Of a stretch of DNA of 27,987 nt, positions 3,586 through 27,315 are shown one piece after another. How positions within the stretch are numbered: the first letter of the stretch is position 1; each line of letters starts with the position of its first letter. Below the pieces are notes generated by a model. That model saw only the letters and a program-made list of their open reading frames with translations, was not told where the DNA came from and did not search any database. The position numbers and the translations under genes are program-made. Source of the DNA: a virus; IMG/VR virus record IMGVR_UViG_3300027861_000155, positions 1-27,987 of that record; one strand, written 5' to 3'.

Positions 3586-4758
3586 TTATACTAAACCTTC
3601 AACTTCGATTGTGCAGATTGCATATGCTGGATAGCTGATCACTATTGAAAAATCTCTGAAATAACCATAAGCCAGAAGTGTTTCATAAGCCTCTGATCCT
3701 ATCCAAACAAGAGGAGTCGCCCTATAATAAGCTAATAACCTATTAACCTCTGCAATGTCTGCATTAAGTAATTGGACATCACAGCTCATCTTTTTTGAAT
3801 ACGGCCTTTCAACTATTATCGAGTTTCCAAAGTCGTCATTCTCTTTCGTAGAGTAATCATGGATACCGATTGACGGGGAATAAAGGGTGTCTCCAAAGTT
3901 TGCCTGCAAGCCTAAAACTATTTCCCCAATCTTGGCTATTGCTGCATCCCCTGAATATGTTATTGTGACATCTATTACAGCGTTGTAGTAAGGAGGTATA
4001 TCAGTTAAGACAAAATCTGTTATATATGTCAAAGTACTGAAAAAGTACGTATACCAATCTACTACAGCACTAACCCCAGAAACTTCCGTTGACACTAACT
4101 CCTTTGTGTAGTTGTAAACCTCGCCATCTACAGGGTCTGTTGACACGACTTGGACAGACGTAACATTGTTAAGGTTCATAAACGCCATTGAATCTATGAT
4201 CTCTGCTGGCGTAAATTGATAGGTGAAAACACCGTTATATTCAGACTGTGAGTTTATTATCTCATCAAATGATTTCCAGCGGTTATTATACCCGATCTCT
4301 AGCCAGCTAGGAACAGTCTCCAAAACATCAAGAGGCGGGTAGTTTTGAGTATTGCTATCAACTAAAGACTGATATATTTTATGAACATTGTCCGTAGAGG
4401 CCGTAATTGTAGGATAAGCGAGGCCCTGGTCCGCAAGCTTACCAGCGACACCAGTTACCCCAATGATTTCGCCCAAAGTATATGAGCCTGTCCGCTCTCT
4501 CACATAATAAGTAAGTGTGGTGATAAAAGAGACCACCACCGATGTTTCAGACGATGTTTGCCCTGTTATAATATCCCCTGGATCCCAATCAGTGGCAGGA
4601 GCAACATCAAGAGTAAGGATCTCAAGACCCTCAGCAACCATGGTATAGTCATCTGTATCATATGAGCTATTCATTGCAAATTCTGTATAATCATCCTCAG
4701 CAAGAGAGGAGCCTGTCAGAACTGCATCAGTGATTTCTATGGGTCGTATTATTTTCAT
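3586..4758 (-). CDS. Tail-tip structural protein with an inserted beta module
   Basis: A 390-residue protein directly after the tape measure, overlapping it by 4 bases (ATGA). It starts MKIIRPIEITDAVLTGS and continues after an interruption with NVHKIYQSL, then GYNNRWKSFDEIINSQ, and ends with IVERPYSKKMSCDVQL, VWIGSEAYETLLAYGYFRDF and an Ile/Tyr-rich final strand. This is the pattern of a widespread but unnamed siphophage tail-tip protein of about 300 residues in which the opening motif is followed quickly by xxHRIYESL. Here about 80 residues (roughly 40-122), including GDIITGQTSSETSVVV and a GEIIGVTGVAG segment, separate the two halves. Its position suggests a distal-tail or tail-tip component; no enzymatic motif is seen. 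Confidence 0.7.
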   Translation of the reverse strand: MKIIRPIEITDAVLTGSSLAEDDYTEFAMNSSYDTDDYTMVAEGLEILTLDVAPATDWDPGDIITGQTSSETSVVVSFITTLTYYVRERTGSYTLGEIIGVTGVAGKLADQGLAYPTITASTDNVHKIYQSLVDSNTQNYPPLDVLETVPSWLEIGYNNRWKSFDEIINSQSEYNGVFTYQFTPAEIIDSMAFMNLNNVTSVQVVSTDPVDGEVYNYTKELVSTEVSGVSAVVDWYTYFFSTLTYITDFVLTDIPPYYNAVIDVTITYSGDAAIAKIGEIVLGLQANFGDTLYSPSIGIHDYSTKENDDFGNSIIVERPYSKKMSCDVQLLNADIAEVNRLLAYYRATPLVWIGSEAYETLLAYGYFRDFSIVISYPAYAICTIEVEGLV

Positions 4759-7700
4759 ACAAGCCTTTCTGCTGGCATACCGTCATCATCAAACCTGCCT
4801 AGTATTTTAGATATTTTCAATGTGTTTTTTGCTAGCTGATAGTTTCCTGACTCTGTTACCTCTCTCAAGCCCCTAAGCTCATTCTTAAGCTCTTTGAACT
4901 CATTAAGTGAGGTTACGTTACCACTTTTTGATTTGCGCCACTCTTCGGCCTGTGGTGCGGTTAGAACAGCCTCATTTTTATGTGCTTTCATTAAATAACC
5001 ATCATAAGGCACATTGTTTAGGCCTGTGGCATGTCCTGGTATTGATGCGGCCAGCATTTCACCTTGAGAGGTGCTGAAACTTGCTGCCTGGGCCAACTGG
5101 TTAAGCACCTGTGATTCAGTGCGCCTGTAGTCAAGCTCTGTCTGACTCATTGAATAGGCAGAGGCAAGAAAGGTTTTTGCTGCTGCTGGTAGAGCTGTAA
5201 GGGCCTCAGTATCTCCACCCATGGCCTGGGTGTATAGAGTGTTAAACCCTGCCTGAGTTGATACTGTAGCGTTTCCGCTTATATCGTCTATAGCTGATGA
5301 TAAAGCCTCTGTAATAGAGGTATATGTCTCCATGGCGTCATTTAAGTCTTCCTGAGCCCATATTTGTTCTTGTATAGACCGCAAAGACTCGTCCATAGCG
5401 TCAAGTTCATATTGCCTTGCAAGTGCGAGGGCTTGTTCTGATTCTCCCTGTGCCTTTAACAATTCAAGCTCAAGAGATAACCTATCTTCTATTAAATCCT
5501 TTGCCTCTGACTCCAGATCCTCAAGGCCTGAGTAATATGATGCAGCCTGCTCAGATAAAGTCAATAAAGCAACATAGGCCTGCTGTCCAGCCTCAGTTGA
5601 TAAATCCAGACCCTGTACAAGGTCCCTATATCCATCTCTAGTATCAGGTAAAAGAGTGTTGATATCAGATAGAGCCCCTGATAAATCCGCCTGTAAATTT
5701 GTGAACCTTTCTGCTTCTGGAATAAATTCTGTATAAAAGATGTCAAAACTATCTCTAAGGTTGTCAATGCCGTCTGCCATGGCAATAATTGTTTCGCTGA
5801 ATTCTATTATTTCAGGGATGGTTCCAGTAAAAGCCTGTCCTGATTTTTCAAGCATATCTACAATAATTGCCTTATCGGTGACAAGCCTAATTGCAGTCTC
5901 ATAAAGTCCTTCACCTATCTGCTGATATCCTTCAACAATAGACCCAAACAACTCACTTACAGCCGTATCTCCTAACCCTGAGAAAAAGGAGACAAAAGCT
6001 GAGTCTATCTCTTCGGCTGTTTTACCAGTAATGTCTATAAACTCAGACTCAAAAGTGTATGCAAGTGTGGATGTTAAGTCAGTCCCAAATTGAGAGGTTA
6101 AATCAATCAATGTGTCAGAAATATCTTGATATACTGATGATATGCTGTCTTTTGTGCTTTCGCTTAATTCCTCTTCTATAGTAATCCCGCTAGAGGTTAA
6201 AAGCGCGGAGGAATCAATACCCCCTCCTGATGATAACGATCCAACCCCAGCCCCACCTATCGATAATCCATATTGTGCATATGCTGCCAGAACCTCTCCA
6301 ACTAGAGAGTATGTTCGGATCTCTGCTAGCATATTAGTGAAAATACCTACATCGTATTTGATCACATCTGCTGCCAATCCAGAGATATTACTATTCAAAT
6401 TTATCATGGACTCATTAAGGTTAGACAGCTCTCTAAGCTCCATGTTATAAGTGTCTTCTAGGATTTCATACGCATTACCAACTGACTCACTTCCAGAGTC
6501 CCCAGTCATAGAGGCCTCTGTGTATGAAGAACCTGAGCTACTGCCACCACCACCAAAAGCAAGCCCGATTGATCCTAGTAAAGTTGCAACTGTCCCAATC
6601 ATTGCAGCCATTCGGAAAGGAGCCGAATAGGGGTCACCTTGGGCCTGGTTTAAGACGGCATTAACCGCCTCAACTGCTGCAAGCGCATTTTGAGTGATGA
6701 CCATCGCCTGTGCAGCTTGTTGCATCTTTTTATAACTGCCTGATCCCTGCTCATACATAGACCCTATGGATTGAAAGGCTGAACCCATTTGGCTTAAAGT
6801 AGCGTCTGTCTGCTCTCTCTTGGCATCAAATACAGCTTTATCAAAGTCCGCTATTTGTTGTCTTGCTTTTATATTAGCTGCTGCCTCATCAAGTCCAGCG
6901 TCAATTCTGGCCTGTCTTTCTATCTCAATCCACTCTAAATTAGCTTCCCTATATTCATTTTCATAAGCTTTAAGATCTTCATACATGTCTATCTTTGCTT
7001 TTATTATAGCTTCTGCTTCTTTTTGTGCTGCATCTTCTGCTTCTTTGGGATCAACGAATAAGGAAGGACCAGAATCAAGTAGACTTGGTAAATCACCGTT
7101 ATCCTGACCGATACCAGTAGGGGCGGTTATTAATGCTTCTTTAAACTCTTTAATTTTCTCAATAAAGTTATCATAGGCGTCATTTGTTTTTCTTATATCT
7201 GCTAGAACATCCTTTGTAACGTCTCCTGATGATAGTCTAAAAGTTTCCAGTGAAGATTCAACAGCATCAAAAGGGTTAAAATCTAAAGCTTTTATTTTAA
7301 CTAATCCGTCGAATATAGCATCTAAAGGCTTTGATATTATACGCAATAGATTGAACATTTCATCAAGAGCAATAGCTATTCCCTGTATGGCTAAAGTGCC
7401 TACAAGTTTAATACCCAACCATGCGTTTTCAAAAAACCTCATCACGTTGACTGTAAAAACAATTGCGTCTGCAATTTTCTCTATGTAATGTGGTATATTC
7501 TGATCGATTAATGATTTGTTGGAAAGTAACCAGTTGTTAGATTGTGTTATCATCTCTTGATAATAAGGCAAGATTGCTTGACCTAATAGAGTAGATATGT
7601 CAGTCAATAAAGCTTTCTGTTGTTTCTCCTGGTTTGCTGCGCTGTCCATGGTCCTTTCCATGTCACCAAGTGCAGCCGTTGAGCCTTCCACCATAAGGGC

Positions 7701-8360
7701 ATACGCTGCCTGGGCTTTCTGTCCTGCTGTTAGTTCGTCAACAGTATCTGCCATACCCATGGTCATAGCTTTCTGCTGTACTATGGTAGCGTTCAATACT
7801 ACCCCGTACTTTCTCATCACCTGATATTCACCAGTCAATGCACTCTGTATATTAAGCATAACCTGCTCAGTTGGCAAGTCATTAAATGATCCTAGATCAG
7901 CAGCCAGCTTTACTATCTCATTCGATAGCTTACCGGCAGATACCGAAGACATCCCCATAGGAACAAGTAAATCCTGCACAGAGGATAAGTACTTTTTAGC
8001 CTCAATAGTAGACATAGCATATGAGCCTACAAGGGTTTTGCCCCACTTTTCAGCTTCTGCTCTCTGCCCAGCAAATACAACATCAAATTTGCCCTGAACC
8101 TCTTGAAGTTCTGAGGCAAGACCTATCGCAATCCTAGTTTGTTTCTGAATTTGATATATTGCAAGGGCTGTGCTTGCTGCTAATGCATATTTGGCATAAG
8201 TGTTGAGTTGTTTTCCCAGCTTGTCAAAACTGCTGGCGAGGGAGTCTGTTGCTTTTTCTGTCGTCTTACTTGACCCAGTGAGCTTATCAAGACGTTTATC
8301 CGCAGTAACCACGCCGTCAGAATCAATCTTTATATATAAATTGGCTAAATCTTGAGTCAT
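4755..8360 (-). CDS. Tail tape measure protein
   Basis: A 1201-residue, largely helical protein, the longest gene here, in the canonical place after the chaperone frameshift pair. The N-terminus (MTQDLANLYIKIDSDGV, then a coiled region with ALAASTALAIYQIQKQ) is typical of tape measure proteins. Hydrophobic stretches lie around residues 310-335 (LVGTLAIQGIAIAL) and 580-600 (MIGTVATLLGSIGLAFG followed by a Gly/Ser run). The C-terminus has HATGLNNVPYDGYLMKAHK, a motif recurrent at the end of phage tape measures. At the usual roughly 0.15 nm per residue the tail would be near 180 nm, an estimate. No lysozyme or peptidase domain is evident. Its ATG overlaps the stop of the frameshifted chaperone (ATGA), implying translational coupling, because the Shine-Dalgarno site is weak. 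Confidence 0.95.
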   Translation of the reverse strand: MTQDLANLYIKIDSDGVVTADKRLDKLTGSSKTTEKATDSLASSFDKLGKQLNTYAKYALAASTALAIYQIQKQTRIAIGLASELQEVQGKFDVVFAGQRAEAEKWGKTLVGSYAMSTIEAKKYLSSVQDLLVPMGMSSVSAGKLSNEIVKLAADLGSFNDLPTEQVMLNIQSALTGEYQVMRKYGVVLNATIVQQKAMTMGMADTVDELTAGQKAQAAYALMVEGSTAALGDMERTMDSAANQEKQQKALLTDISTLLGQAILPYYQEMITQSNNWLLSNKSLIDQNIPHYIEKIADAIVFTVNVMRFFENAWLGIKLVGTLAIQGIAIALDEMFNLLRIISKPLDAIFDGLVKIKALDFNPFDAVESSLETFRLSSGDVTKDVLADIRKTNDAYDNFIEKIKEFKEALITAPTGIGQDNGDLPSLLDSGPSLFVDPKEAEDAAQKEAEAIIKAKIDMYEDLKAYENEYREANLEWIEIERQARIDAGLDEAAANIKARQQIADFDKAVFDAKREQTDATLSQMGSAFQSIGSMYEQGSGSYKKMQQAAQAMVITQNALAAVEAVNAVLNQAQGDPYSAPFRMAAMIGTVATLLGSIGLAFGGGGSSSGSSYTEASMTGDSGSESVGNAYEILEDTYNMELRELSNLNESMINLNSNISGLAADVIKYDVGIFTNMLAEIRTYSLVGEVLAAYAQYGLSIGGAGVGSLSSGGGIDSSALLTSSGITIEEELSESTKDSISSVYQDISDTLIDLTSQFGTDLTSTLAYTFESEFIDITGKTAEEIDSAFVSFFSGLGDTAVSELFGSIVEGYQQIGEGLYETAIRLVTDKAIIVDMLEKSGQAFTGTIPEIIEFSETIIAMADGIDNLRDSFDIFYTEFIPEAERFTNLQADLSGALSDINTLLPDTRDGYRDLVQGLDLSTEAGQQAYVALLTLSEQAASYYSGLEDLESEAKDLIEDRLSLELELLKAQGESEQALALARQYELDAMDESLRSIQEQIWAQEDLNDAMETYTSITEALSSAIDDISGNATVSTQAGFNTLYTQAMGGDTEALTALPAAAKTFLASAYSMSQTELDYRRTESQVLNQLAQAASFSTSQGEMLAASIPGHATGLNNVPYDGYLMKAHKNEAVLTAPQAEEWRKSKSGNVTSLNEFKELKNELRGLREVTESGNYQLAKNTLKISKILGRFDDDGMPAERLV

Positions 8361-9189
8361 TTTTTTAAGCTCTCTGAAATAAAGATTCGATCAATTTGTT
8401 TTAGCACTTGAATTTCCCACGCTTGAGGGTCCTGCCTTGTTAAATCAGACCAAGCCTTGATCTCTGTGTAAGTTAAAGGAGATGGCCCTGCTTCGCTGTA
8501 TCCACGCCCGCCTGACAAATCACAAAACCAACCCCATATATACTGTATGCATTCATCATACTCGATTGATTCAAGTTGCTCTGGAGTCCGTCCTGTCTGT
8601 CTTTCAACGACCTGTAAATGTTCTCTGAGTGTACTGCCGTCTTTCTGCCTTTTGTTCAGCCTAAATTCTTTTTGAACATACCCGATAAGGCCATATCCAG
8701 GGATTAGGTTTTTCTCGCCGTCCTCCCCGGCTGGTTCTCCTATCAGGCTTTGATAAAATTTGCCCTGTCACCTATGGCAATGTCTATCTGCTCTTTGATC
8801 CATGGGAAGCGTGAATATAAAGACTTTGCGTTATCTACAGAAAATACAACATCCTTTTTGTCAAGAAATATAGAGTCCTTATATTCCCCATTCTCATCTG
8901 ATGATTTCCACCCTGTTGTGCATTCTGCCAGAAGATCAAGACCATTGGCCTCTATTTCTTCCTGAGATGGAGAAGATATCTTTCCAGATCTAAATCCATT
9001 CTTTGACATCATATCCATTCTTTTTTTGTTCTGCTTCTTTGTGATTTGTTGAAAACAGTCTGAATCCTTGCCCAGTACAGTAATAATGATTCCTGTATCC
9101 TCATTGGTGGCAGGATTGTAAAGGTTAACGTCAAAACCGTCATTAGACCCCTTTACAGTATCAAGGCTATTCAAATCAAATTTGCCCAT
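8357..9189 (-). CDS. Tail assembly chaperone GT-type fusion by -1 frameshift (277 aa)
   Basis: Downstream of the chaperone stop, the -1 frame is open from the slippery site to a TGA at 8357-8359. It adds 132 residues to the first 145 of the upstream protein. The junction reads ANF-YQSLIGEPAGEDGEKN, and the extension contains YDECIQYIWGWFCDL, PLTYTEIKAW and a closing WEIQVLKQIDRIF. This is the signature of the second (T-like) half of tail assembly chaperones, which in lambda-type phages is made only as a fusion through a -1 frameshift. The -1 frame has a stop (TGA) just upstream of the site, and no good independent start or ribosome site precedes the extension, so frameshifting is the natural reading. 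The fusion recruits tail tube subunits onto the tape measure. It overlaps the tape measure start by 4 bases. Confidence 0.88.
8743..9189 (-). CDS. Tail assembly chaperone, G-like (short form)
   Basis: A 148-residue protein between the tail tube and tape measure genes, the fixed place of the lambda gpG-type chaperone. It starts MGKFDLNSLDTVKGSNDG, has a beta-type N-terminal half (FDVNLYNPATNEDTGIIITV), a basic helix (KKQNKKRMDMM), then LLAECTTGWKS and a helical C-terminus with LYSRFPWIKEQIDIAIGD. The domain order and the TxGWK motif are typical of tail assembly chaperones. The zero-frame stop lies 9 bases beyond the slippery site, so the short form differs from the fusion only by its last three residues before divergence. 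GGAG stands about 11 bases before the ATG. It coats the tape measure before the tube polymerises and is absent from the mature virion. Confidence 0.88.
   Translation of the reverse strand: MGKFDLNSLDTVKGSNDGFDVNLYNPATNEDTGIIITVLGKDSDCFQQITKKQNKKRMDMMSKNGFRSGKISSPSQEEIEANGLDLLAECTTGWKSSDENGEYKDSIFLDKKDVVFSVDNAKSLYSRFPWIKEQIDIAIGDRANFIKA
8755..8761 (-). promoter_or_regulatory. Programmed -1 ribosomal frameshift site A AAT TTT
   Basis: In the reading frame of the G-like chaperone the codons are GCA AAT TTT ATC AAA GCC TGA. They contain the canonical X XXY YYZ heptamer A AAT TTT 9 bases before the stop. After the slip, TAT CAA AGC CTG continues into the T-like half. A GC-rich 4-bp hairpin (GCCG...CGGC) occurs about 23 bases downstream, and AGGTG stands about 9 bases upstream; whether either stimulates shifting is unknown. 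Confidence 0.88.
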
Positions 9190-9248: not shown

Positions 9249-10505
9249 CTATGATAAAGTGCTGTCCTGAATGCTGATGGTTGTTGCAAGGGTGTCTGTG
9301 GCTGTGGCTCCTGTTTCTGCTCCTGCGTTTATATCAAATAGGGCAGTGAAAGGCATGGTCTGGATTATGCATTTTTCACCGTCGTCTTTTGATGATCCGC
9401 TAAGCTTAACCCGTGGAAGAGTAAAGGATATAAAGTCGGCATCACTCTCGTTGCTGGTAGTAAAAACGGCTGCAATGGTTATCTCTGTTTCATCTACAAA
9501 GTAATCCCTTAAGGTCTCATCCTCAAGAAAGGCAGAAAAAGAGCCTGTCACACCAACCCTACCAGGGCAGATGTTAGGCTTGACATTAGATCCTACAACC
9601 GGCTCGCTGGTCATATTGCCTGTTATGTCTAAAGACAGCCCTGTCAAAACAGCAACCTGTGTACCCTCAATTATAATTGCTCCGTTCACGGCAGCAACTA
9701 CGCCAGTGGTAGACGCATCCAGAACCGCAGTAAAATAAGGAGACGAAGCCGAATCAAGAGCGTTGAAGTTCAACCCCATCATACCTACATCAAGGCTTGA
9801 TATGCCTGTGGGTGGTAGCCCTATTGCCATGGTGCTTGGCTTCATATCATAAAACACCTCCGACACATCAATGTCTGAATAATTGTGCTCCATGGTAAAC
9901 CAATTCTCAGTATGTCCAGTCTCAGGAATCCATGTTTTTTGACCCACTCCTGTAAATGTTGCAGCGTCCCCTGCTATCTTTGCTGCTGCTGCATCACCAT
10001 CAAGGAAAATGCCGGTCATTATAAGGTCCGTTACGGCTGTTACAAAAAAGTTTCGGTCATTATTGTCTGCCCCTGTGGTTGTCCACCCTGACCACCTGCC
10101 AACATCACCCACTTTGATACCATCCTGTAGGAAGGTTCCTGTAGCTGCTGATGTAAATGTGGCAGAGGCACCGGAAACCACAGCACAAGCAATGTCAGAT
10201 TCAGGCCCGGCAACTGGAGCCGCAACAAAGTCTTTTCTGAGGATTGCAGCCATCAATAGGTCATAGGTTCCAGGTGATAATTCACCGTTTATAGGCCCAT
10301 CTGAAGACCTTACCCCATGCCTAAAATCTGAGGTTTGCTGGTCGGTCCTGATTTCGTTTGACTGGTAAGTTTCCTTGGTCAATTCAACACCGCTCGTTAC
10401 CCTCCGCATATACTGAGCTGTGGCAAGGTCGGAAACCGCAACAGTCCCCTGTGTGGCCTGTGGTGCAAGAACTACTTTTTTTGATATCCCTGATGCTATT
10501 GCCAT
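9249..10505 (-). CDS. Major tail tube protein (Phage_tube_2-like)
   Basis: A 418-residue beta-rich protein starting MAIASGISKKVVLAPQATQG. It contains the region MRRVTSGVELTKETYQSNEI, then SSDGPINGELSPGTYDLLM, and a second half with WFTMEHNYSDIDVSEVFYDM. These are hallmarks I recall from the tail tube family 2, whose members carry xxTSxxLxxxKxTYxSxEIRxDxQ near the N-terminus and GEL in the early strands. The last 130 residues (LSLDITGNM.SEPVVGSN, then IQTMPFTALFD) match the repeated tube half. It forms the hexameric rings of the tail tube. The order tail terminator, tube, chaperones, tape measure is the normal siphovirus order. AGGAG precedes the ATG at normal spacing. Confidence 0.88.
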   Translation of the reverse strand: MAIASGISKKVVLAPQATQGTVAVSDLATAQYMRRVTSGVELTKETYQSNEIRTDQQTSDFRHGVRSSDGPINGELSPGTYDLLMAAILRKDFVAAPVAGPESDIACAVVSGASATFTSAATGTFLQDGIKVGDVGRWSGWTTTGADNNDRNFFVTAVTDLIMTGIFLDGDAAAAKIAGDAATFTGVGQKTWIPETGHTENWFTMEHNYSDIDVSEVFYDMKPSTMAIGLPPTGISSLDVGMMGLNFNALDSASSPYFTAVLDASTTGVVAAVNGAIIIEGTQVAVLTGLSLDITGNMTSEPVVGSNVKPNICPGRVGVTGSFSAFLEDETLRDYFVDETEITIAAVFTTSNESDADFISFTLPRVKLSGSSKDDGEKCIIQTMPFTALFDINAGAETGATATDTLATTISIQDSTLS

Positions 10506-23453: not shown

Positions 23454-24104
23454 CTATTTAAAACTAACAATACCATCAAAGTATTTTTTGTAAAATTCAA
23501 AAATCCCTTTATCTATGGTGATACATCCGTTTTCAGTTCTTGGATTTGTGTTTATATTAGCACTTGTTTCAACTCCGAAAGCGAATTTATCACCATACCC
23601 TGCAAATATTTTAGAGTGGTTCCTGAAGATAGCTAACCTCCCCCCAAACTGCTCAACTATAGGCTTAAACAGCTTATATTCTTCTTTGTATGAGCCAGGG
23701 AAAATTTCACCCAAATAAGCATCTAATTTTTTAATCTTACCTGCTTTAAGCCACGAATGTATTTGATAGATATCCTCATTAGCCATGCACCATGACGATA
23801 ACAAGCAATAATCAAGATCTTGCTGTCTTAATATTATCTTTAGATATGACAATGCGTCAACGTCACCACCTGTTATAAAATGGTAACTATCACCATCCTT
23901 AAAGGGCATATCACATATATCTAATAATTGAGTTTCACTAAAAGCACGCCTGTATGTGTTTTGGTGCCGTCTTTTTATAGTGCTTGATCTTTTTTGTTTA
24001 GGCTTTTCAGCTTTAATTTTAGGTAATTCTTCTGGTTCAATAATATCTTTTTTTTGTGAACTATTACCCAAATTTAAAGGGTCGAAATTGTCAAAAGAAC
24101 TCAT
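23454..24104 (-). CDS. Phospholipase D-like (HKD-type) phage protein
   Basis: A 216-residue protein with a basic, low-complexity N-terminus (residues about 15-55). The conserved part runs from GDSYHFITGGDVDALSYLKI (71-90) through LDYCLLSSWCMANEDIYQIH and LDAYLGEIFPGSYKEEYKLF to FRNHSKIFAGYGDKFAFGVE then TSANINTNPRTEN (160-192). His-163-x-Lys-165, Asp-172 and Ser-181/Asn-183 form a PLD-type HxK...D...SxN motif, with only one copy, so an active form would need a dimer. PLD-fold enzymes include nucleases and phospholipases; the substrate here is not evident. It overlaps the large terminase by 4 bases (ATGA), the slot where an HNH or other packaging-linked nuclease often sits. A role in DNA processing is inference. 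Confidence 0.72.
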   Translation of the reverse strand: MSSFDNFDPLNLGNSSQKKDIIEPEELPKIKAEKPKQKRSSTIKRRHQNTYRRAFSETQLLDICDMPFKDGDSYHFITGGDVDALSYLKIILRQQDLDYCLLSSWCMANEDIYQIHSWLKAGKIKKLDAYLGEIFPGSYKEEYKLFKPIVEQFGGRLAIFRNHSKIFAGYGDKFAFGVETSANINTNPRTENGCITIDKGIFEFYKKYFDGIVSFK

Positions 24105-26835: not shown

Positions 26836-27315
26836 ATGAACACATATAAGCAACTGGAAACAAGGATTCAATTAATTCAGGAAAATAAACCCGAGTTAAA
26901 AGAAGCAATATGTTCAGCAAAGACCGTCTTTGATATTGTCAAACCTATGGTCGATTTGTGGGATAGGGAAAAAGCCTTAGTTATCTACGTGGACAGAAAT
27001 AATAATATATTGGGAATAAATCAGGTCTCTACAGGCTCGCTCTCAGGGTCCGCTGTTTATCCTAGAGAGGTATTTAAAGCCGCAATTTTGGGGCAGGCGT
27101 CTGGAATTGTTTTAGTACACAATCACCCTTCCGGCGATCCTGAACCCTCAGCAACAGATGATAAGCTCACAAGGGAGATTATATTGGGAGGTCAGGCTCT
27201 AGGCATACAAGTGCTTGATCATTTAATCATAGGAGACACTTATTACAGTTACGGCGATAAAGGCAGAATATCGGCTTTTTATGATCTTGTAAAAACTGCC
27301 GTTGCTAACTTTTAA
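26836..27315 (+). CDS. radC: RadC-type JAMM/MPN domain protein
   Basis: A 159-residue protein with a full RadC-like JAB1/MPN domain. Residues 26-60 contain KTVFDIVKPMVDLWDREKAL and VIYVDRNNNILG; then VYPREVFKAAILGQASGIVL leads to the JAMM motif His-95, His-97, Ser-105 and Asp-108 (HNHPSGDPEPSATD). The C-terminus QALGIQVLDHLIIGDTYYSY is the usual RadC end. The N-terminal helix-hairpin-helix of chromosomal RadC is absent, as in the short versions on prophages and mobile elements. Such proteins bind divalent metal through the JAMM residues; a DNA-repair role is disputed and an anti-defence or recombination-linked role is often suspected. AAAAGGAG precedes the ATG. Confidence 0.88.
   Translation: MNTYKQLETRIQLIQENKPELKEAICSAKTVFDIVKPMVDLWDREKALVIYVDRNNNILGINQVSTGSLSGSAVYPREVFKAAILGQASGIVLVHNHPSGDPEPSATDDKLTREIILGGQALGIQVLDHLIIGDTYYSYGDKGRISAFYDLVKTAVANF

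Follow-up and report, generated by a model that had tools for sequence, protein, structure and literature searches.

How is a reading frame translated when it overlaps the end of another gene and has no start of its own? This question is raised by a tail locus in a viral record (IMG/VR IMGVR_UViG_3300027861_000155, positions 1 to 27,987; the window is this whole stretch of 27,987 nucleotides), where two overlapping ORFs lie between the tail tube and tape measure genes. Judging from the sequence, we put the probability at about 95% that the locus is a tail assembly chaperone pair of the λ G/GT type, made by a -1 frameshift at the heptamer A_AAT_TTT. Frameshifts of the λ G/GT kind are known; what is added here is a well-supported slip site and a conserved 3' structure.

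Two overlapping frames between the tail tube and tape measure genes

Profile matches to the neighbours give the gene order tail tube, chaperone pair, tape measure (Table 1). The 148-residue ORF ends in ...GGT GAC AGG GCA AAT TTT ATC AAA GCC TGA TAG, its TGA lying at 8745-8743 on the minus strand. The second ORF is in the -1 frame relative to the first and meets it at a conserved heptamer of the X_XXY_YYZ form, read in frame. The initial annotation had placed this heptamer, A AAT TTT, in the codons GCA AAT TTT, 9 bases before the short stop; it had described the -1 frame as blocked just upstream, without a start of its own, and open for 132 residues until it ends in the tape measure start, giving a full fusion of 277 residues. 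When the sequence was re-read, all of these elements and numbers proved correct. The extension has no usable start, because the first ATG, GTG or TTG in its frame is a TTG (8518) 83 codons in. Its stop overlaps the tape measure ATG (8360-8358) as ATGA. On slippage base 8755 would be read twice, and the extension would then read YQSL...SLKK.

Table 1. Positions of the chaperone locus features in the window, in the order of transcription
Feature	Position	Strand	Basis or remark
Tail tube protein, upstream neighbour	9249..10505	-	PF18906 Phage_tube_2, 2.4e-25
Short tail assembly chaperone (G-like), zero frame	8743..9189	-	148 aa, stop included in the coordinates; ORF and phrog_313 match
GGTGA	8768..8772	-	its TGA (8770-8768) closes the -1 frame, 6 nt upstream of the heptamer
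Slippery heptamer A_AAT_TTT	8755..8761	-	in frame; invariant in 17 distinct sequences
-1-frame extension	8357..8755	-	132 residues after the predicted slip, plus stop TGA (8359-8357); open frame, PF23812, AlphaFold
Outer helix, 5' arm	8739..8748	-	starts 6 nt past the heptamer; contains the zero-frame stop
Inner helix, 5' arm	8722..8730	-	weaker in the window than in relatives
Inner helix, 3' arm	8697..8705	-	folding and covariation
Outer helix, 3' arm	8680..8689	-	folding and covariation
Tape measure protein	4755..8360	-	1201 aa; phrog_7740 5.1e-23, phrog_24709 1.6e-21

The slip site is fixed among relatives

In-frame XXXYYYZ sites (Y = A or T) occur 32 times in the 7648 codons of the window's genes, so that about 0.03 would be expected by chance in the 7-codon overlap; conservation is a stronger test of the site than this count. 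A single-sequence search of viral contigs with the short half returned no close relatives, an alignment query did find them, and a scan of genome contigs gave only one distant relative. The profile search of viral contigs with the short half found 18 loci, 17 of them readable to the slip site, which, apart from the window, reduce to 16 distinct sequences. These are all environmental, and their short halves are 52-80% identical to that of the window. AAATTTT stands in frame at the same place in every one of the 16, their extensions are all in the -1 frame, and the short ORF ends 3 or 9 nt past the heptamer, with one exception at 51 nt.

The codons themselves are equally telling. When the window and its 16 distinct relatives are aligned by codon, the short half has 51 columns with a conserved residue and a degenerate codon; a single codon is used throughout in five of them, and four of these five are the GGT, GCA, AAT and TTT of the slip site. 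The arginine codon that separates GGT GAC from GCA is free to vary, and therefore the fixed site does not reflect general low divergence. The exact slip site, which the initial annotation had inferred from the sequence, is thus better supported by an invariant heptamer and fixed site codons. The glycine codon is GGT in 17/17 sequences though its wobble position is free, and GGT creates the TGA of the -1 frame. GGTGA may have a further role, such as pairing with 16S rRNA. We considered it as a stimulatory Shine-Dalgarno sequence and set this aside, given the short spacing and an equally good account of GGTGA as the -1-frame stop.

Downstream of the site, substitutions in the extension against its two nearest relatives fall on the three -1-frame codon positions as 18/10/59 and 38/22/68, which, at the level of sequence, is the pattern of a protein read in the -1 frame. 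Scanning for exact GGTGAYNGNGCAAATTTTAT matches yielded 50 loci, most of them with a long -1-frame extension, some of quite different appearance; because the scan picks the site by its pattern, it is no evidence of site conservation. Among these loci L112, L122 and L134 looked unrelated and L113 was cut by the contig end, while L109, L114, L117, L123 and others have quite different extensions at the same exact GGTGAYNGNGCAAATTTTAT site.

A conserved RNA stem begins 6 nt past the heptamer

Sliding-window folding of 31 sequences from the GGTGAYNGNGCAAATTTTAT scan gave a signal just past the heptamer that is clear in groups A and B and weak in group C. In group A, mean folding z reached -2.9 and -2.6 only in windows starting at most 10 nt from the heptamer end and was near 0 in all other windows. 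When synonymous codons of the -1 frame were permuted and the protein kept, the window scored z -2.8 (3 of 500 shuffles as stable); z fell below -1.5 in 12/12 sequences of group A and 9/9 of group B, with relatives down to -7.8, and in only 3/10 of group C.

Folding a longer stretch revealed the outer helix that starts 6 nt past the heptamer, the usual heptamer-to-structure spacer being 5-9 nt (PMC7618472). The initial annotation had not noticed this stem. In a column-by-column covariation alignment of only eight sequences, the outer helix and inner hairpin are paired in 92% of cells, two-sided changes affect 7 of 22 stem pairs, and such changes number 14 versus 5.6 in shuffles; sliding the partners by 1-3 bases lowers pairing to 28-59%. 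In four other sequences the 3' partner is shifted, yet the two-tier stem they form is equivalent. RNAalifold found no joint structure for the 12 group A sequences, because subgroups pair in different registers, and a consensus was found after splitting them into subgroups. The window's own 79-nt element folds at -27.9 kcal/mol and is weaker than the stems of its relatives (z -2.4, and -2.8 in the synonymous shuffles), and in one locus (L141) the minimum-energy structure has no outer helix. Covariation and shuffles together identify a conserved RNA structure after a 6-nt spacer, in the place of a 3' stimulator, and this stem probably stimulates slippage. It is not general, because group C and the G_GGA_AAG loci have no consistent stem. 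A small GCCG/CGGC hairpin was also considered as the stimulator and rejected, being neither conserved nor close enough to the heptamer.

The extension could instead be a separate small gene, translated from a non-AUG start or by re-initiation past the short stop near GGAG and GGGGAGGA. Purine-rich runs do lie just past that stop, and several annotations of cultured phages put an arbitrary start inside the extension. However, its first 45 codons contain no ATG, GTG or TTG in 11 of the 12 group A sequences, the window among them, and a separate gene would leave unexplained the invariant AAATTTT, the fixed -1 relation and the stem 6 nt past the heptamer. We consider this reading improbable.

Both halves belong to tail assembly chaperone families

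The frameshift reading joins two halves that each belong to a recognizable family. The short half matches phrog_313, a tail assembly chaperone family, over residues 6-147 (4.9e-12). The extension, first described as T-like, was searched for a T-like profile, and one was found in substance: it matches Pfam PF23812 (Phage_TAC_18) at 1.6e-18, with 67 bits against a cut-off of 27 and over positions 1-78 of the 79-position profile, as do 33/33 of its aligned relatives. The description holds for position and role, although the profile matched is Phage_TAC_18 and no λ T profile. Pfam gave no match for the short half, NCBIfam gave none for either half, and sequence searches of the PDB gave only matches at chance level.

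AlphaFold, run on each half separately rather than on the joined 277-residue protein, gave mean pLDDT values of 91 (extension) and 78 (short half). Among predicted viral structures, both halves match the same long chaperones: A0A0A0RTG6 of phage Seurat, A0A7L8ZK78 and K4K660 of CcrColossus. Foldseek of the extension against the PDB returned nothing better than E 0.6, and VIA-align gave only low-Z matches. The HK97 gp13 fold (2ob9_A) aligned with the short half at Z 3.7 (rmsd 3.8, 88 aligned residues), tied with unrelated proteasome chains.

The wider family has other likely slip sites

At distant loci with PF23812 nearly all extensions are in frame -1 relative to the short ORF, and the likely slip site differs, the candidates being A_AAT_TTC, G_GAT_TTT/C, C_GTT_TTT, T_TTT_TTC, G_GGA_AAG/C and A_AAA_AAG; several of these assignments come from inspection of single sequences and are leads only. 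By the synonymous test, a stable downstream structure is present in most G_GAT_TTT/C members and in 3/3 members with C_GTT_TTT, and is missing from most with G_GGA_AAG/C. The C_GTT_TTT junctions lie at about 1670-1690 in L013, 2610-2630 in L043 and 2975-2995 in L057; this heptamer is not a canonical XXXYYYZ, and downstream folding is strong at all three (synonymous z -2.8 to -5.1). At two other loci the Phage_TAC_18 extension is in the +1 (or -2) frame: in Limnohabitans phage DC31, near TTT CGA (L091, about 1885-1915), and in L065, near TTT TTT CGC (about 2955-2985).

The relatives also bear on two further readings. In the first, RNA polymerase rather than the ribosome slips in the T run and alters the mRNA; an extra base there would also give the fusion frame. 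Nevertheless, such slippage has no need of a constant AAA ahead of TTTT, the slip sites of relatives include G_GGA_AAG and G_GAT_TTT/C, and a stem placed at 6 nt suits a translating ribosome. Moreover, transcriptional slippage normally needs much longer runs, and we regard this reading as very improbable. That a sequencing error or mutation split an ordinary fused gene has a negligible probability: the change of one base would indeed look like two overlapping frames, but the relatives already refute it, the same arrangement recurring in 16 other distinct contigs at 52-80% identity of the short half and, at other slip sites, in cultured phages.

A probable λ-type chaperone pair with its own signal

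A ribosomal -1 frameshift at the chaperone locus is therefore the reading we retain. Most ribosomes would complete the short chaperone of 148 residues. A minority, when AAT and TTT of the heptamer A_AAT_TTT occupy the P and A sites with the folded RNA stem 6 nt ahead, would slip back one base at exactly this heptamer (AAT to AAA, TTT to TTT) and add a further 132 residues, yielding the 277-residue fusion. Computation shows the two frames, the conserved site, the -1-frame protein with its family and the conserved stem; we infer the slippage, its exact place and its efficiency, the stimulation by the stem and the roles of the two products. By analogy with λ, the N-terminal part common to both products would coat the tape measure protein, and the C-terminal domain gained by slippage would recruit tail tube subunits.

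The locus has the sequence-testable features of the λ G/GT type. As in λ, a short chaperone and its -1-frame C-terminal extension lie between the tail tube and tape measure genes, and the slip site is close to where the short ORF ends. In contrast to λ, the extension here matches Phage_TAC_18 and no λ T profile, and a conserved stem stands 6 nt downstream of the heptamer. To our knowledge, the λ frameshift requires no downstream stem. The heptamers also differ: λ gpG and gpGT arise by a -1 frameshift at G_GGA_AAG (PMC5009743, PMC7618472), in place of the A_AAT_TTT found here. In λ the shift occurs at a low level; the short protein binds the tape measure protein, and tail tube subunits are bound by the T domain (PMC5009743). 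It is tempting to speculate, although we find it doubtful, that the signal of this clade is unusually elaborate, combining a fixed GGTGA with its -1-frame stop, A_AAT_TTT and, 6 nt further, a two-tier stem with the zero-frame stop inside it; such a stem would set the ratio of short to long product and might allow its tuning by cell conditions, unlike the simpler λ signal.

Escherichia phage Seurat (KM236243) offers a close annotated parallel. Both halves match its single 268-residue fold, the extension's model matching part of this tape measure chaperone; the annotation gives its long form as a joined CDS immediately ahead of the tape measure gene and marks its short form with the note 'ribosomal slippage'. 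In contrast, the annotated site lies in AAT TTT TTC TAA (T_TTT_TTC) instead of A_AAT_TTT, and sequence identity is low (16-26% in structural alignments). The extension and the short half match PF23812 and PHROG 313 well, but membership is silent on how they join, to which the slip site and the stem are added here. The bacterial dnaX -1 signal works alike, with a heptamer followed by a stem-loop; however, dnaX is an unrelated gene, and the locus, with just GGTGA 6 nt upstream, lacks a clear Shine-Dalgarno sequence at the spacing used in dnaX.

As a single finding this is ordinary phage biology; such frameshifts are textbook knowledge for long-tailed phages. Our literature search, which covered a minority of subscription papers, returned nothing published about this group of chaperones. 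Annotation often misses frameshifted tail chaperones, and the joined product was annotated in 0/14 of the cultured-phage regions opened from the first similarity search. Within one family the -1 arrangement stays, the slip heptamer changes and many members keep structured RNA just downstream, which makes the family well suited to the question of how the ratio of two proteins persists while its signal changes.

Elsewhere in the window, two ORFs drew attention by eye. The first (23454-24104, minus strand), between the large terminase and portal-like genes, has a NHSKIFAGYGDKFAFGVETSANINTNPR motif that looks phospholipase D-like; the second (26836-27315, plus strand), with HNHPSGDPEPSATDD, resembles a RadC/JAB-domain protein.
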